The notes under the pieces were generated by a model. The model did not search any database and was not told the DNA's origin. It was given only the letters and a program-made list of their open reading frames with translations. A stretch of 59,367 nucleotides of DNA from an uncultured Prevotella sp. (lineage in GTDB: Bacteria; Bacteroidota; Bacteroidia; Bacteroidales; Bacteroidaceae). The DNA lies in NCBI GenBank assembly GCA_902798285.1, contig CADBVZ010000018.1, positions 1 to 59,367 on the forward strand, written 5' to 3'. Below are positions 1,731 through 18,886 of this stretch, piece after piece (the first letter of the stretch is position 1; each line of letters begins with the position of its first letter). The translations under genes and the position numbers were made by a program.

Positions 1731-4082
1731 CTAAAAATCCTCAATCCGCCATTCTTCCTTCCATTCAATTTGCGGTTTACCTTTTTTAAAAACTATCGGC
1801 AAGAAGACATAGGTGGCATTATAGGTTACATCCCATGTGGTACGCACCTTTTCGCGTTTATCCTTTGGCTTTGGAGCTGAGAAGTCCTTGGGGAAAGGCT
1901 TGTGCTTCTTATATTTGGGGATACTGCGTTTCACCTCTTCTGCTGGTTCTGTCGTATTCGTAATCTGAGGCATCCAGCGATCGGCTACTGCCACAAAAAG
2001 ATCACGTCCAGGAATCTTTACCACATCGGTAATCTGAGATCCAAAGGAGTGATTGTAGGGATCCGTGGGATGGGGATTGCCTAGATTCTTGTATTTACCA
2101 TGATAATCATCGAACGACGCAATCATCGACACATTGGGATAATAGCCCGTAGTGCCGGAGGTGAAGAGATAATGCTTACCCTTATAAACAAAATGTGTAG
2201 GTGCCTCACGGGTATACGGAGGTCGTTTACCCACAAAATGACTCGAATAAACGGGTGTCACATCAGTATAGTCGACAGAAAGATCGGCACAAATAAGTTC
2301 CCAGTGAGGTCGTTCGAACCATACGTAGCCCTTACCCGTTTCAGGATCGGCATAGAGATCGAAATCGCCCACGCCAAAACCCTCTGGCTTCAGAGAGCGC
2401 ACATACTTATAGGGTCCGAGGATATTGTCGGCCTGAAGAATCACAAAGTAACCATCCTCGTCCATCGACTTGATCCAACAGACATATTTGCCAGTTTTCT
2501 TGCAGTGAATAATATGCGGACGATCGAGACTCTGCGTATAATGTAGAGGCGAAAGATAATCAGTGGTATCAGGTGGGATGATAAGCCCACAATCCTCCCA
2601 GTTATAAAGATCAGTTGATTTGTAGCAGCGAATACCCCATGTCCACACATGACTGCCTCTGACCGTTCTTTCCTTATTCTCACCATACCAGTAATACACA
2701 CCATCCTGTTCCATCACCTGAAAACCGTGTGCCTGAATAGGTTTGCCGTTGGTGTCGAGCCATATCTCACCAGGACGGATAGAGGTATAAGGTTGACGGT
2801 TTTCCTGAATTAGCAGAATATCTGCCAAAGTCATCTTTTCAGCAGAAACCTGCTGATTGGCAAAGCGAACTATAAACTCATTCTTACCAGCCCTTAAAGC
2901 ATTTGTCACATCTACCCTAAAAGGCTTATTTGTTACCTTACCAACCTCTTGTCCATTGACGCATACCTCCGCTTTAGTACCTACTCTCTCAAGATCGAGA
3001 ACAAAGCGACCCTGCTTTAACTCGAGTTCAGCTATCAGAACTTGATTATGGAAGCCAGAATCTGTTGCCATCCATGGTGTATCCATATGTCGGAAAAGAA
3101 TCTCTTTCTGTTCTGAAAGATTTTGTTTGCGATAGTAGGCATCCACGCGATCAGCCATATTCTGGCGAATGTAGGGGTAGTAGAACTTCAGTTCCAAATG
3201 GTGATAATTGCCAGGGACTCCAATAACGGGCATAGGCTTATCGTTGGTATAGCCACTCACCAATACCAAACGACTTTGTGGATCCAAGCTGGCAGAAAGG
3301 GTGTCATTCTGCTTACGACCATAGAACACAAACGGGGCACTCACGGTATCAGTACGCCAGTTGACGGGATTAATACAGAAAATATTGCCCTCACTTACGA
3401 TCGGGATCCCGCAATTAGGGGTTTTTGCGGAGTTGAAACAGATGGTAACACCCGTATCCGTTGCACCTTGGGCTGGATGCAGATGACGACAAGAGGCAGT
3501 ATCCTTTCGGGTAATCTTATAACCAATGCAATAAGCCGCCACCATTCTTTTGGCGATGCTATCAGGCATCTGTTTCATGATTTCCACCAGCGCATAAGAG
3601 CCCTGACTGAAACCAGCCAAAATAAAAGGACGACTTTGATTGAAATGCTCAATATAGTATTGGAAACTTTCCACACAGTCCTTCATTGGCAAAGGTATAC
3701 GCGACATCGCCAACTCCTCTGTAGCCCAAGACTGCATCGAGGCCTGACGATAATAGGGAGAGAAGTAATTGAGTCGACCTGAATAGAAGGAGTCAACAGC
3801 ATGCATTTCATGTTCCATACGCCCTCGCAGATAAGAATCACGCACATCGGCAAAATGGCAAGTATCATTGCCTATCATATGATCACCCGTCTCTGTAGAA
3901 ATAACGTAGAAGATATCGGCATCACCACCTCGATCCCGAATATACCACATTGAGGAATCTGAATAGTCAGGTTTCGGGGGTATAGGTCCAATAAGGTCAT
4001 TCTGCCCATGATCCCACGAAGAGAAAACGAGCATGAAAGCTATCACGAAGATAGCCACAAAGAGGTTTCTTAATTTAGCCAA
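1731..4082 (-). CDS. DUF3089 hydrolase fused to sugar-binding and GH43-like domains
   Basis: 783-aa exported multidomain protein. Residues 1-22 form a signal or anchor. Residues ~35-320 resemble the DUF3089 alpha/beta-hydrolase family, with nucleophile-elbow GFSQG (Ser159) and a later G-x-Y-HH segment that may hold the catalytic His. Residues ~325-430 look like the beta-sandwich sugar-binding domain found at the ends of GH2-type enzymes (DLERVGTKAEVCVNGQEVG, then R-V-D-V-T). Residues ~436-783 look like a five-bladed GH43-type domain (QAHG, YYWYGE, DFDLYADPE, TREAPT); the Asp of DLYADPE and the Glu of REAPT would be the modulator and general acid, while the usual first Asp appears replaced by AHG as in some GH43-like families. 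A combined esterase and glycosidase acting on a decorated glycan is an inference. Confidence 0.8.
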   Translation of the reverse strand: MAKLRNLFVAIFVIAFMLVFSSWDHGQNDLIGPIPPKPDYSDSSMWYIRDRGGDADIFYVISTETGDHMIGNDTCHFADVRDSYLRGRMEHEMHAVDSFYSGRLNYFSPYYRQASMQSWATEELAMSRIPLPMKDCVESFQYYIEHFNQSRPFILAGFSQGSYALVEIMKQMPDSIAKRMVAAYCIGYKITRKDTASCRHLHPAQGATDTGVTICFNSAKTPNCGIPIVSEGNIFCINPVNWRTDTVSAPFVFYGRKQNDTLSASLDPQSRLVLVSGYTNDKPMPVIGVPGNYHHLELKFYYPYIRQNMADRVDAYYRKQNLSEQKEILFRHMDTPWMATDSGFHNQVLIAELELKQGRFVLDLERVGTKAEVCVNGQEVGKVTNKPFRVDVTNALRAGKNEFIVRFANQQVSAEKMTLADILLIQENRQPYTSIRPGEIWLDTNGKPIQAHGFQVMEQDGVYYWYGENKERTVRGSHVWTWGIRCYKSTDLYNWEDCGLIIPPDTTDYLSPLHYTQSLDRPHIIHCKKTGKYVCWIKSMDEDGYFVILQADNILGPYKYVRSLKPEGFGVGDFDLYADPETGKGYVWFERPHWELICADLSVDYTDVTPVYSSHFVGKRPPYTREAPTHFVYKGKHYLFTSGTTGYYPNVSMIASFDDYHGKYKNLGNPHPTDPYNHSFGSQITDVVKIPGRDLFVAVADRWMPQITNTTEPAEEVKRSIPKYKKHKPFPKDFSAPKPKDKREKVRTTWDVTYNATYVFLPIVFKKGKPQIEWKEEWRIEDF

Positions 4083-5240: not shown

Positions 5241-6728
5241 TCACAAAGAGGGTTCTTTGCGCACGCCAAAGTTTTTGCGGTAGTCATCGTTGATGATCCT
5301 GCTGGCGTTACGGCCATCGAAACGGGTTGGTCCAATGATGAAATCGGGCACATTGAAGGAGAAGAAGCGTTCGCGGTAGAAACGGCGCGGATTCCGCTGC
5401 GGCAGCATGAAGGCTTTGCTGACATTCCCCTTGGCATCAACATGACAGAAATAGGATCTCGTAAAGAGGCCGTCGTCGCGGCGTGAACTCAGCACCATCC
5501 AGCGCGAGTTAGTGCTCCAGTTATGAAAAGATTCCGTATCTTCCGAGTTAGCAGCTGTCATAGCACGGCTCTCTCCCGTTGAGAGGTCGAGCAAATACAG
5601 GTCTGCTTCATGGTGCCAGATGCTGAACTGTCCGTAGTCGGAAAGCGTGTAGCAGAGGAAACGCCCATCGTAGGAGGGACGGGGGAAGGATACCGACTTT
5701 CCCTGCGCTACGGCGTCGAGTACAATTTCTATACTATCACCGAAGCTACCTGTCTCCGGATCGAAATCAACACGACAGAGATTATAGCGGATAGAATCGA
5801 GCTTATAACTGCCCTCAGGAATGGATTGAGCCGCACAGAAGTAGAGCGAACATCCGTCAGAGGAGAAAACGGGAAAGGTCTCATAGACGGAGTCCTGCTT
5901 GAGAAGCGGAGAGAGCAGCAGCTCATTCTTCCCGACGTCATATACCTGAAGGTCGGAAGCGGTATCAAAGACCTCAATACGGTTGGGGTCAGTACTGTGG
6001 AACAGCTGACTAGTGGCGTTGGTGGAATAGGCAATGTAGCGACCCGAAGGATGCCAATAAGGGTAGACGCAGAAACCAAGCGTCTGATCGGTCTTGGTGT
6101 TATAGGCAGTGAAAGGGCCGTTGTTCTGACGCAACAGCGTGGCACCATGAGGGCCACGGATATGAAGGCTCATATCGGCAGAGTTGCCACGATTGAAACT
6201 ATGGCAGTTGACACAACCTTCGAACTGGGTGTTCTCTATCAGGGCACGCTCATCAAACGAGGAGAGGTCGCGTTCGTAGATGCCCATCTTGCTCCATACC
6301 TCATAGCCAGGTTCGATCAGGCGGTAGCAGATACCATAGTCGATGCCGTCAGGGCTGACGTAGATAGAGAATGGCTGATAGGTGTGCCAACCATCATCAT
6401 ACTTAGCCGAAACAGTAACGCTGAGTGAGTCGCCACGATTCTGTCCAAGCAGCTGATGCCAGTCGTCAAGGTCGAAGTCGACCGATTCCTTACCTTGGCT
6501 GTGCAAGGCATTGCCATGACTATCCGTAATGATGGCATCAACAAGCATAGCCGTCTCATCAGCCATATTGAAGCAGAGAGGGGCGATATTCACGGGTATG
6601 GTAACACCGATGTAGTCTGGATAGATCTGAGGCAGAATGCTTTCCTGCTTTGCATTCTCTACGGTAGTCGTGCAAGATGACAACAACCAACAGCCAACAC
6701 CTATTATATCATATAGAATCTTTCTCAT
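5241..6728 (-). CDS. CxNCH-motif beta-propeller lipoprotein (copy B)
   Basis: 495-aa predicted lipoprotein: an ATG at 6728 gives a signal sequence ending in the lipobox LLSSC. A GTG 39 nt further upstream would bury the signal and is not used. Residues 35-150 hold a conserved segment (IYPDYxxVTxPxNIAPL, later YRLIEPxY). A CVNCH haem-c type motif lies at 172-176, followed at fixed distance by Met186 and His189, possible axial ligands. Residues ~215-480 contain repeated TolB/PD40-like blades (YPYWHPSGRYIAYST, PVFSSDGCSLYF, SRRDDGLFTRSYF). The start overlaps the end of the preceding membrane-protein gene by 20 nt, so the two are almost certainly co-translated. It is a clear paralogue of the gene at 8133-9626. 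Covalent haem attachment is an inference; the motif could instead bind another metal. Substrate and partner are unknown. Confidence 0.8.
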   Translation of the reverse strand: MRKILYDIIGVGCWLLSSCTTTVENAKQESILPQIYPDYIGVTIPVNIAPLCFNMADETAMLVDAIITDSHGNALHSQGKESVDFDLDDWHQLLGQNRGDSLSVTVSAKYDDGWHTYQPFSIYVSPDGIDYGICYRLIEPGYEVWSKMGIYERDLSSFDERALIENTQFEGCVNCHSFNRGNSADMSLHIRGPHGATLLRQNNGPFTAYNTKTDQTLGFCVYPYWHPSGRYIAYSTNATSQLFHSTDPNRIEVFDTASDLQVYDVGKNELLLSPLLKQDSVYETFPVFSSDGCSLYFCAAQSIPEGSYKLDSIRYNLCRVDFDPETGSFGDSIEIVLDAVAQGKSVSFPRPSYDGRFLCYTLSDYGQFSIWHHEADLYLLDLSTGESRAMTAANSEDTESFHNWSTNSRWMVLSSRRDDGLFTRSYFCHVDAKGNVSKAFMLPQRNPRRFYRERFFSFNVPDFIIGPTRFDGRNASRIINDDYRKNFGVRKEPSL

Positions 6729-8127
6729 TCTTAATAGACATGAAGTGGTTAAAGCCTTCGCGGTCACCTGTCAACAGATAATAGGCTACTAGATACTGAT
6801 AGGCCAGGCGATTGTCCGTGTTGCTGAAATAGAGACTCTGAAGCATCTCGGGCGTCACATGATCACTGAAGTAAAATTCTTCCTTGTAGGCATACTGGCG
6901 GAGACGTCCGTATTCGGGATGGCTATCTATTGCCTTCTCATCACCAAGAAGCAGCAGGGTCTCATCCGCCCAGTAACGATAGAAGAGAGTCTTCTGCAGG
7001 GCAGTGAGATACTTGCGGGCCACCTCATACTGTCCGTTGATGAGGTTGGTCTGTGCCAGCCGTTTATAGCATCGGCCACTCTTCTGGAAGTCGAGGATCG
7101 CCTCCTGAGCCTCGAATACCGTTCGCTGAGCGACATTGATCATTCCCAACTGATAGAAAGCCTCGGCCGTAGGCAAGGGACTGGTGGCATCTTCCTTGAC
7201 ATCGGGCAGAAGACCGGCGATGCCGTTCTGTTTATAATTGAACATCTGGTCCAGGAGCGTACCATGCATTGCCAAGGCAAGGTTTTGTACCGTCACGCCA
7301 ATCTGGTTGTTAGGCTTTTCTTGGTTAACAGCATCAAGTATGCGGTTCCATTGCTGATGACAGGCCATGAAGTCATACTGCATCACCTTCTCCGCCTTAA
7401 AGTTGGTGTTCTTCCAGACTAAAGTCCCCATGATACCAGCAACAAGTGCTGTCAAGAGGAGAGAGGTGAGAGGGGTAAGGTGAGAGAAATGCTTCGGGAA
7501 GCGACGGATGAGAATAGCTATTCCTGCAAGTACCCAGATGGAAAAAGCCGCACCCCACAGAAGCCATGGGAAAACCGTAGGATAGCGGTAGTAATGCACA
7601 CCTGTCCATAGGCTGTCAATAGGTATCGGGAAACAGACGGGCCCCACCAAGATATAGAGTATAGGAATGGCGACAATGAACAGGATGATGCGTATCCGTC
7701 CTTTCGTTAACTTTACAATGCCCCATACTACAAACAGCGTGAGCAGTACTGCCCAAATGCCACCCAGCAGAGCATTCTCATCGAGCAGAAGGATCCATAG
7801 CAAAAACGAAGGTACGAAACTCAGGCCATAGAGACTGGGAGAGTTTGAGGGGGCTATCAGTTGGCGTGTCAGAAGCTGTACTGTCGAGAGCAACAGCGCA
7901 ATGATAAGAGCCCCTACCCAGGCATAAAGGAAAAACTGTGTGCAGAAACGCCCCAGCAGGTCGGCTACACCACCTGTATGCTTAATAATCTCGCAAACAT
8001 AATTGCTATCGAAAAGGAACAGCTGGTATTGTTCCTGATAATGCAGATGGTGCGGATAGGCCAATCCGAAAAAAAGGAGGACAGCCACACAGAAAAGGAG
8101 CGTGCATATAGTACGAGTAAACCTCAT
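6709..8127 (-). CDS. DUF6057-like polytopic membrane protein (copy B)
   Basis: 472-aa inner-membrane protein. About seven to eight hydrophobic segments fill residues ~5-255, starting with an N-terminal signal-anchor helix and a conserved YxxxFLFDSNY-like loop. The C-terminal ~210 residues are soluble and helical with TPR-like pairs (AFYQLGMINVAQRTVFEAQEAIL, TNLINGQYEVARKYLTAL). It resembles the Bacteroidetes family I recall as DUF6057, but that label is from memory and unchecked. It lies 5 bp behind the CxNCH lipoprotein copy A and overlaps copy B by 20 nt. A run of 7-bp repeat units (7458-7485) sits inside the coding sequence at the edge of the last membrane segment. It is shorter than copy A (591 aa), mainly at the C-terminus. 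No catalytic motif is recognised. Confidence 0.7.
   Translation of the reverse strand: MRFTRTICTLLFCVAVLLFFGLAYPHHLHYQEQYQLFLFDSNYVCEIIKHTGGVADLLGRFCTQFFLYAWVGALIIALLLSTVQLLTRQLIAPSNSPSLYGLSFVPSFLLWILLLDENALLGGIWAVLLTLFVVWGIVKLTKGRIRIILFIVAIPILYILVGPVCFPIPIDSLWTGVHYYRYPTVFPWLLWGAAFSIWVLAGIAILIRRFPKHFSHLTPLTSLLLTALVAGIMGTLVWKNTNFKAEKVMQYDFMACHQQWNRILDAVNQEKPNNQIGVTVQNLALAMHGTLLDQMFNYKQNGIAGLLPDVKEDATSPLPTAEAFYQLGMINVAQRTVFEAQEAILDFQKSGRCYKRLAQTNLINGQYEVARKYLTALQKTLFYRYWADETLLLLGDEKAIDSHPEYGRLRQYAYKEEFYFSDHVTPEMLQSLYFSNTDNRLAYQYLVAYYLLTGDREGFNHFMSIKNEKDSI
7458..7485. repeat. Four 7-bp units inside the copy-B membrane-protein gene
   Basis: GGAGAGA GGTGAGA GGGGTAA GGTGAGA on the plus strand. Read on the minus strand in frame they encode FSHLTPLTSLLL, almost the same peptide as the folP tail. 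Confidence 0.75.
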
Positions 8128-8132
8128 CCGAT

Positions 8133-9626
8133 CTATTTGTCAAACACTTTACTGAACTCGTTAACACTGATCTTCACAGGCTCTACCATGAACTCCGGTC
8201 GGTTGTAACTCTTCAGGAGGAATGTGTTTAATTCCGGGTCTTCCTGCGGCAACATAAAAGCCTTCTCCGCTTTTCCATTTTTAAAGTAGGAGAAATAAAC
8301 ACGGCAGAAGTTACCATCATCACGACGACTGGCCACCATGATCCAATGTCCGTTACTCGACCAACTCGGATAGCTGTCCGGACGTCCCTCGCTATTCACT
8401 TTGCTGAGGTCGACAGTCTGAGTCAGGGGAAGTCCCTGATCGAGCGGCATACAGACGATGTCACCGTCGTTGTGACGGATATGGAAACAGCCGTACTGTC
8501 CCTGGGCAAACAGAATATAACGTCCATCGGGGCTAATACGAGGCAGTGTGGCACTCTTGTCCTGTGATGCGGCATCATACACCAATTCCTCGTCGCCGAA
8601 GTTGTGCGTTGCCACATCGAACGAACGGCGGTAGAGGTTGTATTGTATCTTGGGATAGGTGGTTCTGATATCCTTGTCGCGCATCTCTTCAGGGAGCGGA
8701 ACAGACTTACAGTAATAAAGGTATTTACCGTCTGGCGACCAGGTGGGATATACCTCCAGGAGCGTGGAATCGTTGCTGACAACCTGCACCGAGTCAGTCT
8801 CCACATCGTAAAGAATCAGGTCGCTAGCAAGATCGTAGACCTCAATCTTGTTGGGATTCTGTGTATGGAATCCCTGACGTGTCAGATCGGTTGAGAAGGC
8901 TATCAGCTTGGCGGTAGGATGCCAGGACGGATAGACGCCAGAGGAAATGGTATAGTCGCGCTTCAGATTGACTCTAGATATCTTACCGTCGTTCACAATC
9001 ACAGTACCGCTATTAGCGAGACGTACGTGGAAAAGCATGTTGTCGGTCTTGTAGTTCTGATAGCTATGGCAGTTGATGCATTGGCCTATCTTCCTGTCAT
9101 TCATGGTAATCTCGTTGTTGAAGATTTGTGTCTCTTCAAACGTAGTGAGGTTACGCTGGGCAATCTCCATGAAGGTCCATGCCACATACGAAGGTTCAAT
9201 CAAGCGATACGACAGATATTCGTCGATAGGATCTTCTGCAATACGTATCTCAAACGGGGTGAACGACAGCCACTCACCATCTTTCTTGCCCCATACCTCA
9301 ACCTTGATGCTCTTGCTTTTCGAGGCATCAAGCATCGTGTGCCATTCCGACTCAGGTATCTGCACCTTTACGCCTTGGCCGTAGGTCTGCTGGTGGCCGT
9401 CTGGCGTGGTGATACGTGTCACACACTCCTCATACTCGTCGGCAGGGAGCATGAAGTTGAGAGGCGCGATGTTGCAAGGCACAGTGACATTGCAATAGTC
9501 TGGGTAGATAGCAGGCAGGCACTTGGCGTCTTTACTTGAGGAGGGCACATCGGGGTGACTGGCACATGATGACAACAACATGGCAACAGCCAATAACAAC
9601 ATATAGGAGTGAATATATCTTTTCAT
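8133..9626 (-). CDS. CxNCH-motif beta-propeller lipoprotein (copy A)
   Basis: 497-aa predicted lipoprotein with lipobox LLSSC at residues 17-21. The layout matches copy B: IYPDYCNVTVPCNIAPLNF, then YRLIEPSYVAW, then CINCH at 183-187 with Met197 and His200 at the same spacing as in copy B, then TolB/PD40-like propeller blades (YPSWHPTAKLIAFST, YPTWSPDGKYLYY, PRISPDGRYILFAQG, YPSWSSNGHWIMV) and SRRDDGNFCRVYF near the end. The haem-type motif, flanking ligand candidates and the strings PNKIEVYDLASDL and KAFMLPQ are shared by both copies, so they are likely functional. It sits 6 bp after the membrane protein copy A and 5 bp before copy B. A c-type cytochrome role outside the inner membrane is an inference. 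Confidence 0.8.
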   Translation of the reverse strand: MKRYIHSYMLLLAVAMLLSSCASHPDVPSSSKDAKCLPAIYPDYCNVTVPCNIAPLNFMLPADEYEECVTRITTPDGHQQTYGQGVKVQIPESEWHTMLDASKSKSIKVEVWGKKDGEWLSFTPFEIRIAEDPIDEYLSYRLIEPSYVAWTFMEIAQRNLTTFEETQIFNNEITMNDRKIGQCINCHSYQNYKTDNMLFHVRLANSGTVIVNDGKISRVNLKRDYTISSGVYPSWHPTAKLIAFSTDLTRQGFHTQNPNKIEVYDLASDLILYDVETDSVQVVSNDSTLLEVYPTWSPDGKYLYYCKSVPLPEEMRDKDIRTTYPKIQYNLYRRSFDVATHNFGDEELVYDAASQDKSATLPRISPDGRYILFAQGQYGCFHIRHNDGDIVCMPLDQGLPLTQTVDLSKVNSEGRPDSYPSWSSNGHWIMVASRRDDGNFCRVYFSYFKNGKAEKAFMLPQEDPELNTFLLKSYNRPEFMVEPVKISVNEFSKVFDK

Positions 9627-9632
9627 AATCGT

Positions 9633-11408
9633 TTATGCGTGAGTTTCGTTTCCAATTTTACCATGTACATTGAGAGGTTTTCTGCCGAAGATATTGTACC
9701 ACCAATAGGTATCTCCATATTCCGCACGCATCTCCTCACCAACTTGCTCTACAGTCATACCAGGCACTGCCTTACTTTCAAGCGACTCCCAAAACTGTTT
9801 GTAACGTTCGTAGATGCCCTGTTCGACAGGAATCATCATGCGCTTTTCTTCTGGGGTCTTGTCAATGAACAGAATATAGGCTTCTTGTGCATGCACAGGA
9901 AAGTTCTCGTTCATGTGCAACTTCACAAAATTACGCAGCGAAGGCCAGAATCGACGAGAGTCGCAACGCAACATGGCATAGAGCAAGGCTTGTTCTGATG
10001 CTACTTTATAATCGGATTCATACCAAAGACTGATGCCATTGACAATATAGCTGTCGCTGTTCTCTACGCCAGTGAGCTCATCGGAATAGGATTTTTTCAA
10101 TGTCTTTACCGTTTCCGTAACAGGAGCCGGCTGCCAATCATCATAGAAGAGATGATGATGTAGCTGGGTGGTATAGCGCTCCACCAGTTCTTTATCTCCG
10201 CAAGCCAAGGCGCAACGGGAAAGCATCTTCAGATAGAATGGAGAGAAACCTGCCTGTATGGCATTCTCGAAATTCAGACGGATGGCTTCATTCATCATTC
10301 CGTAGTTATAATAAACCAAAGGAGATGCTATGTCCAAAAGGGAGACATGAAGCGTATCGGGATTATAAATACTTGTAGGACTATTACCAAGTTTAAATGA
10401 ACGGTCAAGCAAGCCGCCTTCGTTCATCAGGGCAATATTCTTAAGAAAGATCATCGTACTTGTTGGCTTCTTGTTCTCTTCTGCCATATGAAGTACCTCT
10501 TTCCAGTTGTCATCCTCAGCATAGCGCACCATGCGCATCTCGTCGATATAGTTCTGATCATGGAACATGAGTGACGAGATAAAGTAGATGCCAGCAGCAG
10601 CACAAAGCACAGGAACGAAAGCCTTAGCCAGATACTTGCCACACAGCGGAATGAGCAGAGAGACAGCGCCCAGCACCCAGAACGGATTGGAAAGATGCGG
10701 GGTGTTGTCGCTAGGCGTTATAAAACGAGGCAAGCCAGCTAGTACGACATCGTCGAATCTCAAATTCGAATAGAACTGTGTATGCCAGATGCTAGCGGTA
10801 AAGATGAGGAGAACAATACCGAAAAGCTCACGCCAAGTAGGCTTTTCGAAAAGCACTAAGCATAATACGAAAAGTAACGCAAACCATCCAAGCACTGGAT
10901 AGAGGCAAGAAGCCAGCAGATACCAGACAAGATGCCATTTACGTGGAGTTTGGCGAGCTGCCCACAAAAATAGCAGCATAACGAGATAAGCTACCGACTG
11001 CGAAAACCAATAACCTCTAATCGTAGAGACATAGACCCAATAGCCCAAATCGACAATGGATGTGAGCAGACAGGCTACAGGCAAGAGCATCAGTGCAGAG
11101 GCACTTCCCTGTAACCGGAATGCTTTGGTACCTACAAAGAAAGTAAGCACCCAGATAGCCACTAGTACACCTGAGCCTATGGCTGGATAACAGAATAACT
11201 GCGTCAACCAGGCTCCTACATACTGCATGAGGCCAAAAGGCTTCTGCATCAGAGCATGAAAGAAGGGTGCCCCGAAAAGGAATTCGGAACGATCGTGTGC
11301 CGTATAGAATACCTCTTGGTTGATGTATAGGATATATACAACAAATAAAAAGAAAGCCAACAGACTTACATAGAGGACTATACTTGATACTTTGCTAGTT
11401 TTATTCAT
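9633..11408 (-). CDS. DUF6057-like polytopic membrane protein (copy A)
   Basis: 591-aa membrane protein and first gene of the four-gene module. About nine to ten hydrophobic helices span residues ~10-290. The remaining ~300 residues are soluble and alpha-helical, with TPR-like character (PLVYYNYGMMNEAIRLNFENAI, LSRCALACGDKELVERYTTQ). Topology and local similarity to the protein at 6709-8127 mark the two as diverged paralogues. The family label DUF6057 is from memory. It has its own good promoter (TTTG-N20-TACCTTTG, 11431-11462) and the upstream Sus operon ends in a terminator, so it is not simply a tail of that operon. Function is unknown; a membrane platform for the CxNCH lipoproteins is the simplest inference. 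Confidence 0.7.
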   Translation of the reverse strand: MNKTSKVSSIVLYVSLLAFFLFVVYILYINQEVFYTAHDRSEFLFGAPFFHALMQKPFGLMQYVGAWLTQLFCYPAIGSGVLVAIWVLTFFVGTKAFRLQGSASALMLLPVACLLTSIVDLGYWVYVSTIRGYWFSQSVAYLVMLLFLWAARQTPRKWHLVWYLLASCLYPVLGWFALLFVLCLVLFEKPTWRELFGIVLLIFTASIWHTQFYSNLRFDDVVLAGLPRFITPSDNTPHLSNPFWVLGAVSLLIPLCGKYLAKAFVPVLCAAAGIYFISSLMFHDQNYIDEMRMVRYAEDDNWKEVLHMAEENKKPTSTMIFLKNIALMNEGGLLDRSFKLGNSPTSIYNPDTLHVSLLDIASPLVYYNYGMMNEAIRLNFENAIQAGFSPFYLKMLSRCALACGDKELVERYTTQLHHHLFYDDWQPAPVTETVKTLKKSYSDELTGVENSDSYIVNGISLWYESDYKVASEQALLYAMLRCDSRRFWPSLRNFVKLHMNENFPVHAQEAYILFIDKTPEEKRMMIPVEQGIYERYKQFWESLESKAVPGMTVEQVGEEMRAEYGDTYWWYNIFGRKPLNVHGKIGNETHA

Positions 11409-11430: not shown

Positions 11431-11462
11431 CAAAGGTAGTAACAATATTTATAATCCCCAAA
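11431..11462 (-). promoter_or_regulatory. Promoter of the DUF6057/CxNCH module
   Basis: On the minus strand a -33 TTTG (11459-11462) is separated by exactly 20 nt from a -7 TACCTTTG (11431-11438), an almost ideal Bacteroidetes promoter 22 bp before the ATG at 11408. Confidence 0.8.
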
Positions 11463-11490: not shown

Positions 11491-11523
11491 TAAAAAGAGG
11501 ACATATCGAAATGATATGCCCTC
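11491..11523 (-). terminator. Terminator of the SusC-SusD-lipoprotein operon
   Basis: An 11-bp stem (11497-11507 with 11513-11523, one mismatch or wobble, 5-nt loop) is followed by a short T run on the minus strand (11492-11496). It separates the Sus operon from the DUF6057 module. Confidence 0.75.
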
Positions 11524-11551
11524 TATAAATTATTATACTGATAAGGAATAA

Positions 11552-12283
11552 TTACTCCTCATAGTAAACAGCGTTCAGCGTCATAGAGCCGCTGTAGAGC
11601 ATGAGGTCGAGGTCACGACCTTCACCACCCTTAGCACACTCCTTAGCCAATGTCTCAGTGATCTGAAGCTCATTCAGACCATCCTGCCACTTCACGTGAT
11701 CATAGTAGGTGTTACTCCACCAACCGTTCATCACCTTCAGATCGAAGTCTGCAGTAACGTCTGATACGTCAAAGATCAGAGTCTTCAGGCCAAAGTAAAC
11801 ATCATCGGGAATAGTGGGCAGGTGTGCACCTTCAGTTGAGCTGAAACGCATAGCTGCTGCATCCCATGCTGCAGGCTGGAATGGAGTCTGCTCGGGAAAG
11901 CTTGCAACATCACCATAGATATAGTACTTCTGAAGAGGATCAGTGATCTCCTGACAGCTTACGGGGAATTCAGCAGTCAGTTCGGTACCGTCAGCACAAA
12001 GTGCAGTCAGAACAACAGTAAAATCACCAAGCTTCATCTTCTTAGTTGCATAGTTACCAAGGAACTCCTTACCACCGATAGACCACTTGGCATTAACAGC
12101 GGCAGATGTAGAACATGTAACCACGTTACCATTCAGGCCACTCGCAGCCTTATCGACAGTAACAGTAGACTTCGCCTTGAGTTCGTCAACAGAAATGTGA
12201 CCGCCATTGCTGATATCCTCATGAGTAGGATCGCAGGCAAAAAGCGCACATACTGCGGCAAAAATCAAAAATATCTTTTTCAT
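11552..12283 (-). CDS. SusE/F-position surface lipoprotein
   Basis: 243-aa lipoprotein (signal ending LFAC at residues 14-17), third gene of the Sus-type operon, 20 bp after susD. Residues ~30-115 look like a PKD or Ig-like beta domain (AKWSIGGKEF, GDFTVVLTALCADGTEL). The C-terminal half (YYIYGDVASF, then MNGWWSNTYYDHVKW, DLDLMLYSGSMTLNAVYYEE) is probably a jelly-roll ligand-binding domain, with exposed Trp and Tyr residues of the kind used to stack on sugars. Position and size suggest the SusE/SusF role of an outer-membrane surface binding protein. I do not recognise a specific family and the ligand is not predictable. The operon terminator follows within 60 bp. Confidence 0.75.
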   Translation of the reverse strand: MKKIFLIFAAVCALFACDPTHEDISNGGHISVDELKAKSTVTVDKAASGLNGNVVTCSTSAAVNAKWSIGGKEFLGNYATKKMKLGDFTVVLTALCADGTELTAEFPVSCQEITDPLQKYYIYGDVASFPEQTPFQPAAWDAAAMRFSSTEGAHLPTIPDDVYFGLKTLIFDVSDVTADFDLKVMNGWWSNTYYDHVKWQDGLNELQITETLAKECAKGGEGRDLDLMLYSGSMTLNAVYYEE

Positions 12284-12303: not shown

Positions 12304-14241
12304 TTAATATATAACTGTATATGTGTACTCCTGAGCAGGTGTATTCTCATCCCATCCGGCGTTCTGAGTCATCTTACCACTCATCAGGGTAATCTGTGAC
12401 TGAGGCTTTGGCAGGAAGCCCTTGGTATCAGCATAACGCTTAGACCAAGAACAGGTCATGTGCTCCAAAGAACGCTTGTTGGCCTTCTGACCAAGGCATA
12501 CAATCTGCTTACCCTTCTGGGCCTGGAGGGCCTTAGCAGCGTAAGAAGACTCACTATGCTTATCAACACCTGACCAACGACGCATATCGTTGAAGCGGAG
12601 ACCCTCCATAGCGAACTCCCAACGGCGCTCGTTCTGAATGTTCTTCAAAGAATAAGCGGTTTCAGGAACACCAGCACGACGCTGAACCTGGTTCATATAA
12701 GAAGCATCACCAGTGAGCTCGGTGAGCATCAGCAGAACGTCAGCATAACGCATCAGATAGAAATCTTCGAAGTGGTCACCCTGCTGCTCATTGTCAAGTG
12801 AACTGCCAGTATAACCAGGAGCCTGCTTCCACCAAGAATCATTATCTTTCGGGTTGGCATCCAGGTTAACTTCAGCGTACTTCTTACAAGCATAACCTGA
12901 CTCTTCATTGTCATCCTTCTCGTAGGTATAGCTCTCGAGCTCGTTATCGAGGTCGATCAAAGAACCGAGCTTACGGATATCTGTATATTCACCAGTTCTC
13001 TCAGCATCTGTCCAGTCGTCCCAGATGTTGCAAGAAGGAGTACCCTGACCCCAACCCTGGTTGAACGGATAAGTCTTGTCACGCTTACCATTATCATTGG
13101 TAGCACCGTTACGAAGACCCCAGAAGCAAGACAGATAGTTAGAATACATACGCGGGTTATTGTAAGTACCACCAATGGCCCACTTAGAAGCATTCAGGAA
13201 CTGAATTTGGAAGATTTCCTCATCGTTGCCATTACCCATGCCAGGCTGGTCGAAGCAGTTCTCACGCTTCATGTCAGCGATGAATTTATATGCATGACCT
13301 GCGTCATCATGAGCCTCATCCCAAAGGAAGCTGTTAGAATACTGCCAGAGTGAACGGAAGTCCTCCAGGAGCTTGAAACGACCGCTTGAAACGATGTCCT
13401 TCAAATAGCTGACAACATCAGTCTGAGAAATAGAAGATGCGCTACAACCCTCCTGAGCAATAGCCTCACCATTACGGTCTGTCAGGCTGATAGCAGGAGC
13501 TGAGCCAGAAGCCAGCTCACCTACACCCTTATAGAAGCCAGCCCAGAACATATAGGCACGGGCCAACATAGCCTCAGCAGCATACTTGGTGGCATGACCA
13601 TCGCCCTGCAGACCATAGCCTGATGCTACATCCATGAGGTTCATACCAGACACGAAGTCAGCAATAATCTGTGGATAGATGACATCTTCAGCACTTACCT
13701 GCTGCTGCATCTCGTCGGTAATAACGGTTCCCGTAATCAGAGGTACATCGCCGTACAACTGAGTCAGCCACAGATTGTAAAGACCACGCATGAAGAAGGC
13801 CTCACCAAGAAGCTGATTACGCAGCGGCTTCTGAGCGTCAGTCCAAGTCACGTTATCGATGGTCTCAATCTGGTTATTGGCACGTGAAATACCACCATAG
13901 AGAAGGATAAAGTTAGCCTCATACTGGTTAGCACTTGCCGTTGTGAAATGATGCAGTGACTTATTAACATTATCCTGCAGACCACCACTTCCATAGCAGT
14001 TGTCCGACATCATCTCCCACCAATAGAAAGGATTATTACATACACCACTATTATCACCGCCACCCAGCGTATTCATGATACTGTAGGTAGCTGCATTCAG
14101 AGCATCAACATCTCCTGGCTTACCAGGGAATGTAGCCGCTGTCAACTCTGTAACACGAGGATCGGTGTCCAGCATGTCGTTACAGGCTGTAAACAAAGTC
14201 GCTGAAAAAACAGCTGCTGAAAATAAAATATATTTCTTCAT
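12304..14241 (-). CDS. RagB/SusD family nutrient-uptake outer-membrane lipoprotein
   Basis: 645-aa SusD-like lipoprotein (lipobox FTAC at residues 16-19, then NDMLDTDPRV). It shows the usual SusD layout: an N-terminal helical TPR scaffold (EAFFMRGLYNLWLTQLYGDVPLI, YAAEAMLARAYMFW) and a C-terminal region with RRWEFAMEGLRFNDMRRW, the family hallmark, and a final LPKPQSQITLM segment. It sits as a lid on the partner SusC channel and captures substrate at the cell surface. It lies 15 bp downstream of susC. Somewhat longer than the typical 500-600 aa, suggesting extra surface loops around the binding site. No CAZyme lies next to the operon, so the nutrient, a glycan or something else, cannot be named. 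Confidence 0.93.
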   Translation of the reverse strand: MKKYILFSAAVFSATLFTACNDMLDTDPRVTELTAATFPGKPGDVDALNAATYSIMNTLGGGDNSGVCNNPFYWWEMMSDNCYGSGGLQDNVNKSLHHFTTASANQYEANFILLYGGISRANNQIETIDNVTWTDAQKPLRNQLLGEAFFMRGLYNLWLTQLYGDVPLITGTVITDEMQQQVSAEDVIYPQIIADFVSGMNLMDVASGYGLQGDGHATKYAAEAMLARAYMFWAGFYKGVGELASGSAPAISLTDRNGEAIAQEGCSASSISQTDVVSYLKDIVSSGRFKLLEDFRSLWQYSNSFLWDEAHDDAGHAYKFIADMKRENCFDQPGMGNGNDEEIFQIQFLNASKWAIGGTYNNPRMYSNYLSCFWGLRNGATNDNGKRDKTYPFNQGWGQGTPSCNIWDDWTDAERTGEYTDIRKLGSLIDLDNELESYTYEKDDNEESGYACKKYAEVNLDANPKDNDSWWKQAPGYTGSSLDNEQQGDHFEDFYLMRYADVLLMLTELTGDASYMNQVQRRAGVPETAYSLKNIQNERRWEFAMEGLRFNDMRRWSGVDKHSESSYAAKALQAQKGKQIVCLGQKANKRSLEHMTCSWSKRYADTKGFLPKPQSQITLMSGKMTQNAGWDENTPAQEYTYTVIY

Positions 14242-14256
14242 AACTTAATTAGCGAA

Positions 14257-17200
14257 TTAGAATTTAATACTTGCACCTACAAGATAAGTACGAGATGGCG
14301 GGTAAAGACCCAGGTCAACACCAGATGCCCAGCCATTACCACCGGCTGAGTTACCTACCTCAGGATCGAGGCCAGTGTAACCAGTGAAGGTGATCAGGTT
14401 CTGAGCCTGAACATAGAAGCGGAGCTGCTGCAGAGGACAAGACTTCCAGATGTGCTTGAAATCATAACCGAGTGTAACGGTCTTGATCTTGAAGTAGTCA
14501 GCATCCTCCATGTAACGGGTTGATACCCAGTTGGTGTTCTGGTGACCGGTAGCAGAAACACGTGGCTGAGTGTTTGAAGTACCCTCACCAACCCAACGGT
14601 TCAGGATCGTGGTATCATAGTTCTGATAAGGAGCATCAGAGAATGAACGGTAAGAACGCATGATCTGCTGACCGAATGCACCTGCACCGTTTACAGCAAA
14701 GTCGAAGCCCTTCCACTGCAGACCGAGGTTCACACCAAGCATAATGTCTGGGTTAGGATTACCAATCTCATGACGGTCACAGCCCTCACCTTCGGCGTAG
14801 GTAATCACACCATCACCATTATAGTCATCCCAGATACAGTCACCAGGCTGTGCATTGTCAAGAACGGCCTTACCAGCCTGACGAGCAGCATCGATCTGCT
14901 CCTGGTTCTGCCAGATACCGCTGTATGACATACCATAGAAGTAACCGATGGGGAAGCCTTCCTGAGCACGATAGATGTATTCAGTACCCTGTGAGAGAAC
15001 GCCACTAGGACCATTGATGTATTTATTCTGGTTAGCGATACGCGTTACCTTATTCTTATTAGTAGCAAAGTTCACGCCAATGTTGTAGCTGAAGTCCTTG
15101 CCAATTCTGTCGTTCCAAGTAAGAGCAATTTCAATACCGGTATTCTCAACGTCACCACCATTGATGGCAGCAGGGTTGGTACCATAAATTGCAACATTCT
15201 CACCAGTGATCAGCCAGTCCTTAGTGGTCTTCTTATACCAGTCGAAAGTCAAACCCAGACGGCTGTTGAGGAAGCGAGCGTCGAAACCGAAGTCGAGCTG
15301 CTCAGAGGTCTCCCATGTGAGGTCGGGGTTCGGCACGATGTTAGCGTAAGCACCAGTATATGGAGTACCAGAAGTAGAATTCTCAATGGTAGAACCGAAC
15401 TTGTAACCACTGTCACCAGCCTCACCAGACAAGGCGATAGTAGCCAGATACTGATACTTGCTGATATCCTTGTTACCGTTCTGACCCCAAGATGCACGGA
15501 TCTTGAAGAAGTCGAGCCAGCTCTTAGTTCCCTCCATGAATTTCTCGTTGGTTACTACCCAACCTGCAGATACAGAGGGGAAGAAACCCCAACGCTTGCC
15601 ATCGGTGAAGATACTAGAACCATCATAACGCATGGTTACAGTAGCCATATAGGTCTCGTTCCAGTCCCAAGTCAAACGGCCGAACCAAGAAGCGAGGTAC
15701 TCTTCATCATTAGGCTTACCAGTTACGGTTACATCGGGAGCATTCACCACCTTGATGTTAGAGAGCCATGCAGAATCCCAACCTTTCAGAGTTGCGAGCT
15801 GATCGCCCCAGTTTACCTTGTTAGATCCACCAATGTTAAAGCTCCAAGCTGAGCTCTGGTAGGTCTGACCAACCATGGCGCTGATCTTGTGACCACCAAG
15901 CATAGGAAGGTCGTAAGTCAAGGTGTTCTCAATAGACCAACCTGAACTTAACCATGCGTTCTGGCTAACACTATATACGGTTGATGTAGCATTACCATAA
16001 CCAGAAGATTTGGGCTCATTATAGCTACGATAGCCACCTGAATTCCAATTATAGTTGAACTGAGAACGGAGTCTCAGACCCTTGATGGGCTGGATGGTCA
16101 TGAAAGCAGTAGCGCTGGTACCGATACTGCGGCTTTCTGCCAAAGCACCGAAGCCACCATGAACGAGGTTCTCCCATGGGTTGCTGAACAGAGAAGCGTT
16201 CCAACCCTGACCGTATGCCATTGTACCATCAAAATTCTGATAGCTATATACATCACCATTGTCAGCGTACTGTGGTACGAGCGGACAGGTCTGGAGCAGA
16301 CTGTGAATATAGCTCCAGTACATACCGTCCTCAGCGAGGTCGTGGCTCTTGGTGTAGCCGATAGAGATGTTCTCACCGATGGTGATGGCATCGAAATCCT
16401 TGGCCTTCAGGAGCACGTGGTCACTGTTGATACGGATGGTATGGCGCTTGTAGTCAGAAGCCATATCAGCACCCATGATACCCTCGTTACCGGTATAGGT
16501 GTAAGACATAGCGAACTTTGAGCGGTCAGTACCACCAGTCAGAGTTACAGAATGGTTCTGCTGCTGAGCGTTCTTATTCTCGAAAGCGCCCCACCAGTCA
16601 GTACCTTCCCAACCACCGTTCACTTTAGAGAGGATGTCGGCAGGAACGAAGCCAGCCCAATCCATCTTCTGACCAGAAGTATTGAAGGTGTACTCGTCGA
16701 TGATGGTCATATACTGCTTAGCATTGAGCAGCTGAGGACGTTTGTAGGCGTTTGACCAACCCATAGCACCATTGTAGCTAAGCTCGATCTTACCTTCCTT
16801 ACCCTGCTTGGTAGTTACCAGAATAACACCGTTGGCAGCACGGGCACCATAGATGGCTGCAGAGGCAGCATCCTTCAGTACGTCGATGCTCTCGATATCA
16901 TTCGGGTTGATACCGTCGAGGCTACCACCGGCTACACCATCAATTACATAAAGAGGTGCAGAGTTACCTGTGGTACCGATACCACGGATATAAACCTTGT
17001 AACCCTTACCAGGCTGAGAAGAACTCTGGGTAATCTGTACACCAGGAGTGCTTGACTGCATGGCCTCGAGGGCGTTGGTGGTGTTCAGCTTGGCGATATC
17101 CTCACCCTTTACCTGAACAGTAGCACCGGTAACCAGCTTCTTCTTCTGGACACCGTAACCTACTACAACCACTTCATCAAGAACGGCATTGTCGTCCTTC

Positions 17201-17526
17201 ATTGTGATCTGGAAGTTGTCCTTATTGGCAACCTTGATTTCCTGAGTTTCGAATCCGATGAACGAGATAACGATCGTTGCATTGGGATTCACGTTGAGAG
17301 TGAAGTTACCGTCAAAGTCAGTAACTGTACCATTCGTGGTACCCTTTTCTACTACGCTGGCACCGATAACGGGACCAGATGCGTCGACTACAGTACCTGT
17401 AATCTTCTTCGTTGCCTGCTGAACCTCCTGAGGAGCTTCTGAGGCATAGGTCTTAGGCGAGAAGCAAAGTCCCATAAAGGTAAATGCTCCTGTTAAAAAC
17501 GCTAATTTTCCTAAATTTTTGTTCAT
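14257..17526 (-). CDS. SusC/RagA family TonB-linked outer-membrane transporter
   Basis: 1089-aa SusC-type TonB-dependent transporter. After a signal peptide (ending in the YASEA region) comes a carboxypeptidase-regulatory-like beta domain (ITGTVVDASGPVIGASV, NGTVTDFDGNFTL), then the SusC signature DEVVVVGYG at the TonB-box position, a plug domain (IRGIGTTGNSAPLYVIDG, DIESIDVLKDAASAAIYGARAANGVILVTTK) and a 22-strand barrel region ending in an aromatic residue (ASIKF). The ATG at 17526 is chosen over the upstream GTG-type extension because it begins the signal peptide. It heads the operon susC-susD-lipoprotein. The promoter at 17732-17763 implies a leader of about 200 nt. No dedicated ECF sigma/anti-sigma pair or hybrid two-component regulator lies next to it. 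Confidence 0.95.
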   Translation of the reverse strand: MNKNLGKLAFLTGAFTFMGLCFSPKTYASEAPQEVQQATKKITGTVVDASGPVIGASVVEKGTTNGTVTDFDGNFTLNVNPNATIVISFIGFETQEIKVANKDNFQITMKDDNAVLDEVVVVGYGVQKKKLVTGATVQVKGEDIAKLNTTNALEAMQSSTPGVQITQSSSQPGKGYKVYIRGIGTTGNSAPLYVIDGVAGGSLDGINPNDIESIDVLKDAASAAIYGARAANGVILVTTKQGKEGKIELSYNGAMGWSNAYKRPQLLNAKQYMTIIDEYTFNTSGQKMDWAGFVPADILSKVNGGWEGTDWWGAFENKNAQQQNHSVTLTGGTDRSKFAMSYTYTGNEGIMGADMASDYKRHTIRINSDHVLLKAKDFDAITIGENISIGYTKSHDLAEDGMYWSYIHSLLQTCPLVPQYADNGDVYSYQNFDGTMAYGQGWNASLFSNPWENLVHGGFGALAESRSIGTSATAFMTIQPIKGLRLRSQFNYNWNSGGYRSYNEPKSSGYGNATSTVYSVSQNAWLSSGWSIENTLTYDLPMLGGHKISAMVGQTYQSSAWSFNIGGSNKVNWGDQLATLKGWDSAWLSNIKVVNAPDVTVTGKPNDEEYLASWFGRLTWDWNETYMATVTMRYDGSSIFTDGKRWGFFPSVSAGWVVTNEKFMEGTKSWLDFFKIRASWGQNGNKDISKYQYLATIALSGEAGDSGYKFGSTIENSTSGTPYTGAYANIVPNPDLTWETSEQLDFGFDARFLNSRLGLTFDWYKKTTKDWLITGENVAIYGTNPAAINGGDVENTGIEIALTWNDRIGKDFSYNIGVNFATNKNKVTRIANQNKYINGPSGVLSQGTEYIYRAQEGFPIGYFYGMSYSGIWQNQEQIDAARQAGKAVLDNAQPGDCIWDDYNGDGVITYAEGEGCDRHEIGNPNPDIMLGVNLGLQWKGFDFAVNGAGAFGQQIMRSYRSFSDAPYQNYDTTILNRWVGEGTSNTQPRVSATGHQNTNWVSTRYMEDADYFKIKTVTLGYDFKHIWKSCPLQQLRFYVQAQNLITFTGYTGLDPEVGNSAGGNGWASGVDLGLYPPSRTYLVGASIKF

Positions 17527-17604
17527 ACTTAAGTATTTACTATAGATTAATTGGTTTGTAATGAATACAAATTGATAATTGTGTGGAAGCAATAGCCTCC
17601 CAGT

Positions 17605-17629
17605 AGCCTGCAAGCCTGCTTGGCGGGCT
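17605..17629 (-). promoter_or_regulatory. GC-rich hairpin in the susC 5' leader
   Basis: AGCCTGC (17605-17611) pairs with GCGGGCT (near 17623-17629) with one wobble, enclosing AAGC/GCTT. It stands out in an AT-rich leader, about 80 nt upstream of the susC ATG. A regulatory role (attenuation or small-RNA target) is an inference. Confidence 0.5.
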
Positions 17630-18016: not shown

Positions 18017-18886
18017 TCATATATTTAATTTTTCGGCAAGTCGATCCATGTCTTCCTCCAATTTATGCATTGTTATTTTTGCATAGATTTGAGTCGTTGT
18101 GATATTGGTGTGTCCAAGCAAACGGCTCAGACTTTCTATTGGCATTCCCTTGTTAAGTGCCAGTACGGCAAAAGTATGCCGGGCACAATGGAATGAGATT
18201 CGCTTTCTGATGCCGACTTCTTCCATCACTCTATGAATACGTTTAGCCATAGTTGCATATTCCATTTGCTCAAAAACATATTCTCCCTGATGTTGATATC
18301 TTATAATCACTTGATATGGAACTTCCAAGAGTTTAACTTGAAACGGAATGTTAGTCTTATGTCTTTGGGAAACAATCCATTTTGATCCATTGATGTCGAC
18401 AATATTCTCATATTTAAGTTCTTTCAAGTCAATAAAAGCCAGGCCTGTAAATGCAGAAAACACAAACACATCACGAGTAAAAGTCAGTGCCTTATCCTCA
18501 AATTCATGGTCCATCAGCAATTTGAGTTCACCCTCCGTGAGGTACTCTCTCGGACGGATGTTTTTAGCGAGACGGAATCCGGCAAAAGGATTCCAAGTAA
18601 GGACACCTCTTTGGTAAGCCCTCGTCACGACTCCTTTCAACTGTTGGCATGCCAACCATACAGTGCCGCCCCTTAGACCACGTTCTACACTCAAATAGAC
18701 ACTGAAGTCGTGAATAAACTGCGGTGTCAACTCTTTCATGGCAATGTCTTCCATGTTGAAATGTTCTTTTAGGCATTTCTCAACATAGGTCTTTCCTTGT
18801 AGCATTGCTTTCCATGTACTTGCCGAACGGTCTTTCCCGATGCGGCTTTCGAGACTTCTCAAGTCTTCTTCGTAAACAGACAACAA
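18017..18886 (-). pseudogene. N-terminally truncated tyrosine recombinase (integrase remnant)
   Basis: 289 codons from a TTG at 18886. The sequence corresponds to residues ~120 onward of Bacteroidetes phage-type integrases (normally ~400 aa). The SAM-like core-binding domain starts within LSVYEEDLRSLESRIGKDRS, and the catalytic domain follows with TGLAFIDL, HCARHTF (HxxR) and LGHTNITTTQIYAKI (His and the nucleophile Tyr). The arm-binding N-terminal domain is missing: no homologous sequence is seen in any frame upstream to 19025, and no ATG starts the frame. A nearby ATG at 18923 is in a different frame. The usual first catalytic Arg is absent from the TGLAF segment, which is common in this clade. 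Probably a relic of an integrated element rather than an active integrase. Confidence 0.8.

Follow-up and report, generated by a model that had tools for sequence, protein, structure and literature searches.

A conserved two-gene unit of DUF6057 membrane protein and CxNCH propeller lipoprotein in Bacteroidales, a candidate haem c system

A 59,367-nucleotide (nt) contig of an uncultured Prevotella sp. (CADBVZ010000018.1, assembly GCA_902798285.1; the whole of this stretch is here called the window) carries four consecutive minus-strand genes that make up two pairs, each consisting of a DUF6057 membrane protein and a propeller lipoprotein with a CxNCH motif. Our preferred reading, which we hold with moderate confidence, is that the lipoprotein is a periplasmic single-haem c-type protein with a dedicated inner-membrane partner, and that it is probably redox-active; the two-gene unit is the firmest part of this reading and the redox role the weakest. 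The assembly comprises 3.04 Mb in 80 contigs at 84% completeness, and the closest named genomes are rumen Prevotella assemblies, with lipoprotein A identity of up to 87%. The genes and their motif codons, the latter computed from residue numbers, are as follows.

9633..11408, minus strand: DUF6057 membrane protein A, 591 amino acids (aa), PF19529 E 4.5e-69, with N-terminal transmembrane (TM) segments and a long soluble C-terminal part
8133..9626, minus strand: propeller lipoprotein A, 497 aa, lipobox Cys21 (by eye), CINCH at residues 183-187, PD40 E 2e-15
9066..9080, minus strand: CxNCH codons of lipoprotein A
6709..8127, minus strand: DUF6057 membrane protein B, 472 aa, PF19529 E 3.9e-133, about 7 TM segments as read
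5241..6728, minus strand: propeller lipoprotein B, 495 aa, CVNCH at residues 172-176, PD40 E 2.4e-4
6201..6215, minus strand: CxNCH codons of lipoprotein B

Gaps of 6 nt (9627-9632) and 5 nt (8128-8132) separate the genes, and the start of lipoprotein B overlaps the preceding gene by 20 nt, in agreement with the tight packing described in a first-pass annotation of this DNA. That start is most plausibly the ATG at 6728, which we prefer over the listed GTG at 6767 that adds 13 residues. Compared pairwise, the lipoproteins share 36% identity over 485 aa (E 3e-103); the DUF6057 proteins, far more diverged, share only 26% over 194 aa (E 2e-12). The two membrane proteins exceed the PF19529 gathering cut-off of 29.8 bits by a wide margin (445.8 and 234.3), and CINCH and CVNCH are canonical CxxCH motifs. 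The first-pass annotation had proposed two copies of one gene pair, the DUF6057 family for the membrane proteins and a haem-type motif in the lipoproteins, and had warned that the lipoproteins might be no closer to each other than random propellers; the proposals stand, and the warning is not borne out.

The pairing extends well beyond the window. Across 60 related genomes, 70 of 77 lipoprotein matches are immediately preceded by a DUF6057 match in the same orientation (for one DUF6057 gene, secondary fragment rows were excluded). The remaining seven comprise matches at contig starts (G014, G018), short fragments (G015 C54, G001), one with DUF6057 on the other side (G015 C63), and two (G034 C75, G031 C85) with no DUF6057 match on the same contig. 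Counted by genome, 22 relatives carry both families, none the lipoprotein only, one DUF6057 only, and 37 neither (p 1.6e-15; DUF6057 matches of at least 100 bits, with a 49-bit fragment of G001 excluded). We also examined 80 loci from GTDB, the best 80 of 184 candidates, selected via two peptide patterns other than the CxxCH motif. Among their 96 clustered genes, 80 follow DUF6057 directly and 8 precede it; the other eight are four non-family genes, two genes at contig ends (L119_0, L127_0), and L079_10 and L116_6, which have no adjacent DUF6057. The non-family genes, which were set aside, are L119_1 (a 5'-nucleotidase by Pfam, and once a row of our alignment A2) and three PD40 proteins of 285-292 aa that lack CxxCH; even at E 10 the family profile picks up none of the four. 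Hence 88 of the 92 true family genes adjoin DUF6057, as do 18 of 19 further members picked by hand, weak ones included.

Distances between lipoproteins also track the distances between their partners (r 0.905 over 89 pairs, one L129 DUF6057 being counted in two of them; maximum 0.169 in 999 permutations). This correlation speaks to joint descent and not to contact, because genes inherited as a block would correlate anyway. Judged from these comparisons, DUF6057 and the lipoprotein are a conserved unit with joint descent. The families are not mostly apart, the outcome that would have told against the first-pass proposal, and every one of the 22 lipoprotein genomes has DUF6057. Our search of an open-licence library of papers found no description of the DUF6057-lipoprotein pair, nor any paper using the word DUF6057, in keeping with the first-pass annotation, which knew of no described function for the combination.

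The first-pass annotation had described a duplicated module; a recent duplication is not supported. Orthologues of pair A and of pair B occur in the same A-B order in loci L074-L077, with lipoprotein identities of 82-88% (A) and 79-85% (B); A against B, in the same pair-distance comparison, gives 37% for the lipoproteins and 17% for the DUF6057 proteins. Other Prevotella thus hold separate orthologues of either pair, at 70-88% and in unchanged order; the duplication was not local, and pairs A and B are, by these relationships, old separate lineages and not the product of a tandem duplication at this site. Contig C9 of the window genome carries three further pairs, and lipoprotein B is closer to two of them (43-47%) than to lipoprotein A. 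On that contig (L006, 5075-15770), two of the pairs are in tandem with a DUF4369 lipoprotein between them, and the third, on the opposite strand, adjoins an AraC-like regulator (by eye).

By sequence, the lipoprotein combines a lipoprotein signal, a conserved N-terminal part, a near-invariant CxNCH, and a propeller of the TolB/PD40 type. In the 80 loci, every one of the 91 family members that reach 420 aa has CxxCH (90 CxNCH, one CMSCH); so do 17 of the 19 further members, and the Asn of CxNCH is retained in four distant relatives (CANCH, CGNCH). In a conservation alignment of 111 rows assembled without regard to the motif, 109 rows keep each of Cys183, Asn185 and Cys186, and 110 keep His187; three arginines match or exceed this level (Arg158 and Arg202 in 111/111, Arg141 in 110/111). 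Two features expected of a c-type cytochrome are present, namely an exported protein with CxxCH (lipobox, by eye, and CxNCH in both window lipoproteins) and a synthase in the genome (two CcsA and two ResB matches in that of the window).

The membrane partner is, by sequence, polytopic with a large soluble C-terminal part. For DUF6057 B, a hydropathy script returned eight windows, some of them overlapping; our own reading of hydropathy and loop charges gives about 7 TM segments, with the N-terminus inside and the C-terminal part periplasmic. All 62 rows of alignment A3 match DUF6057 at E <=0.1, and weak matches to TPR or RPN7 turn up in a few DUF6057 members. In the 62-row DUF6057 alignment, no column of His or Cys is conserved at 62% or more; DUF6057 itself is therefore unlikely to carry electrons, and the finding speaks against its working as a haem b or quinone cytochrome. 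Solo relatives of the family also exist. In the window genome, a 383-aa protein homologous to DUF6057 (profile comparison, probability 99.7) adjoins a glycogen-branching-enzyme-like gene (by eye; L015, 6314-7465), and short solo DUF6057 matches without the lipoprotein occur in many related genomes.

From these properties we infer the haem attachment, the protein contact, the substrate and the electron path of the following scheme. In the periplasm, CcsB/CcsA would attach a single haem c to CxNCH; the propeller would bind a ligand or partner, and DUF6057 would anchor the lipoprotein at the inner membrane through its periplasm-facing helical domain, so that the unit could use the haem for a redox reaction or for electron transfer. 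Each paralogous pair would have a ligand of its own. A second haem ligand might be supplied by His200, which we favour since it lies nearest to the motif.

The genomic distribution of the synthase is consistent with this scheme. A published account (PMC10663686) places the attachment of haem to CxxCH by CcsB/CcsA outside the inner membrane. In a sample of 296 Bacteroidales genomes, a CcsA match is found in 36 of 37 lipoprotein-positive genomes and in 204 of 259 others (Fisher p 0.0057, kinship uncorrected); because of that missing correction the co-occurrence is consistent with the scheme and not proof of it. Five lipoprotein candidates and up to nine CcsA candidates were scored per genome, and G219, whose weak match covers the propeller part only, was counted among the negatives. 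CcsA also occurs in 46 of 50 further positive genomes, picked by hand out of the 80 GTDB genomes, mostly because their contigs are long. Only 21 of the 60 relatives have NrfA, another cytochrome c. The window genome has an nrfA-ResB-CcsA set on contig C70 (L161) and a second ResB-CcsA set without nrfA on C28; this second set (L160, 6739-8399) adjoins glycosidase-like genes (by eye). The envelope or redox role suggested in the first-pass annotation fits the near-universal CxxCH and its co-occurrence with the synthase.

Several observations weigh against a haem-bearing redox protein. No cytochrome family stands among the Pfam matches listed (window proteins; 63 rows, 25 of 31 families), and no second axial ligand is invariant, His200, His236 and His385 being the best candidates at 105 of 111 rows each. 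Two members lack CxxCH: L213 (3562-4959) has lost both the motif and its DUF6057 neighbour, and L214 (3656-5167) has lost the motif and kept the partner. The positive genome G275 keeps CLNCH and has no CcsA match, a single absence that, like others, is not certain because only some candidates per genome were scored. CcsA is common anyway and the genomes are related; in the 60 relatives it does not discriminate (19/22 positive versus 30/38; 49/60 overall). The synthase also has other clients, as in G028, where a fused CcsBA adjoins a protein with two CxxCH motifs, and as in Bacteroides, for which ccsA genes have been described next to nrfAH and next to genes for a thiol oxidoreductase and a peptidase M75 (PMC10434189). 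Finally, the direct neighbours vary, and SusD is not enriched beside the pair (SusD_RagB in 2/87 near versus 5/76 far proteins, among the matches listed). The near set held 89 proteins from 95 neighbours, reduced to 87 when 2 repeats were dropped; the far set held 99 from 214, cut by hand to 76, mostly locus-edge genes. Fasciclin is likewise not enriched (6/87 near versus 4/76 far, among the matches listed).

Some of these points suit a different account without haem, in which CxNCH serves for a structural disulfide or for metal binding and DUF6057 holds the lipoprotein, whose propeller would bind a ligand. The lack of a cytochrome domain among the Pfam matches listed and of an invariant second ligand speaks for it, as do the retention of the DUF6057 neighbour by the motif-less L214 and the missing CcsA match in G275. 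A plain disulfide, however, has no need of Asn185 (109/111) or His187 (110/111), which are conserved like both cysteines (109), and the presence of CcsA in 36 of 37 positive genomes also speaks against this account, which we regard as unlikely. The haem might instead serve as a sensor of redox state or gas that signals through DUF6057 and tunes nearby transport genes. Some sensor haems have no fixed second axial ligand, and none is fixed here either; that a genome can hold several paralogues, in differing gene contexts, would also suit a sensor. Set against this are the DUF6057 members themselves, which show no recognised signalling domain among the Pfam matches listed, and the neighbourhoods, in which we noticed no recurrent regulator beside the pair; we consider a sensor quite improbable.

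A very improbable alternative turns on the membrane protein, which would be a GT-C-like glycosyltransferase or polymer-handling enzyme with the propeller as an accessory. DUF6057 does have the layout of a first TM segment, a long outside loop with a conserved Gln, and a second TM segment, which may resemble that of GT-C proteins. The columns conserved at 62% or more, however, include neither Asp nor Glu in the first outside loop, and a GT-C fold is unsupported by profile comparison with two families taken from relatives (probabilities TMEM260-like 1.5%, YfhO 1.3%; shallow alignments). The single-haem c-type lipoprotein with an inner-membrane partner remains the reading that we favour.

Upstream of the four genes, on the same strand, the window holds a SusCD region with the following features.

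14257..17613, minus strand: SusC/RagA TonB-dependent transporter, TIGR04056 E 5.6e-270
12304..14241, minus strand: SusD-like protein, SusD_RagB E 3.1e-22
11552..12283, minus strand: small lipoprotein in the SusE position, without a Pfam match; relatives (cluster 10) in 5 of the 80 loci
11496..11524, minus strand: terminator-like hairpin between the SusE-position gene and the four-gene block, fold z -7.8
11431..11462, minus strand: Bacteroidota-type promoter-like site TTTG-N20-TACCTTTG, by consensus match

The order SusC, SusD, small lipoprotein and block recurs in L074 (with one extra gene), L075, L077, L078 and L079. The position of the hairpin is common to these five orthologous loci, and its sequence in the window differs from theirs. 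From hairpin to DUF6057 A start codon there are 15-17 nt in L074, L077 and L078 and 37 nt in L079, and in L075 the DUF6057 frame opens ahead of the hairpin. Such spacing leaves little room for a promoter after the hairpin, so that a separate promoter there is a feature of the window and not of the group, and the TTTG-N20-TACCTTTG pattern was not found in the 420-nt stretches scanned at the five loci. With the spacing short or absent, the block is probably read through from SusCD in most orthologous loci, where a promoter may be located before the hairpin. Of the one good promoter claimed in the first-pass annotation, what stands is the site itself, which fits the Bacteroidota promoter consensus; it does not define the block, its relatives having no room for such a site after the hairpin.

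Beyond this group, direct neighbours in the 80 loci are diverse, with no conserved third gene or fixed pathway. A gene of the SusC cluster (by eye) is present in 26 of these loci, and in L084, L090, L091, L105 and L118 a DUF6057-lipoprotein pair is followed by a large gene (cluster 14), SusC and SusD. The SusCD link is firm for the present orthologous group only, since across the 80 loci SusD is not enriched directly beside the pair. Because pairs A and B follow SusCD in this Prevotella group, their ligand may be one of SusCD import. Elsewhere in the window, a tyrosine recombinase gene (Phage_integrase, Phage_int_SAM_5; 18017-18886) lies upstream of the SusC gene on the same strand. The inverted repeats between the two are imperfect (75-77%), and an invertible SusC promoter is therefore not shown. 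A single 783-aa frame at 1731-4082 combines DUF3089, jelly-roll sugar-binding and GH43-like domains.

Distant homologues with VCxNCH and a propeller, and with no adjacent DUF6057, occur in G207, G275 and G219. Two loci hold such proteins with C-terminal tetratricopeptide repeats (TPRs).

L224, 8516-13088, and L225, 7581-10262: VCxNCH propeller proteins, two of them with C-terminal TPRs (916 aa in L224; 893 aa in L225)

Their propeller is homologous to that of the lipoprotein (437 columns, hhalign probability 100, E 2e-41), and like pairs A and B they lie near SusC/SusD-like genes (by eye). Unlike the paired lipoproteins, they carry the TPRs in cis on one polypeptide and have no adjacent DUF6057. 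We found no family name for them. Homology between their TPRs and the C-terminal part of DUF6057 was unsupported (probability 0.5, two-sequence alignment). The parallel may point to a general theme, in which a haem-propeller works together with a helical-repeat partner; this is a hint only, because no homology is detectable between the two helical domains.

The Pfam DUF6057 entry (PF19529) describes a family of unknown function without the lipoprotein. The lipoprotein has PD40-type blades like those of TolB in the Tol-Pal system (TIGR02800 E 1.5e-8), but its 34 bits fall far short of the TIGR02800 equivalog cut-off of 343.15, and to our knowledge a near-invariant CxNCH is not a feature of TolB. 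With NrfA-type and other System II periplasmic c-type cytochromes it shares an exported CxxCH protein and CcsB/CcsA in the genome, but it has a single motif and no cytochrome or NrfA domain among the Pfam matches listed.

Few c-type cytochromes are known in the anaerobic Bacteroidota of the gut. It is possible, if doubtful, that a haem c redox step operates in the import loci of gut Bacteroidota, with a single-haem propeller and a helical-repeat partner (DUF6057 in trans, or TPRs in cis) acting on or sensing SusCD import. If the favoured reading is true, Bacteroidales, many rumen and gut species included, would possess a class of c-type haem lipoproteins, widespread and duplicated many times over, that goes unseen under ordinary annotation (PD40, TolB-like, DUF6057). 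Such a class would provide a client for the cytochrome c synthase in genomes that lack NrfA, and would give DUF6057 a testable function.

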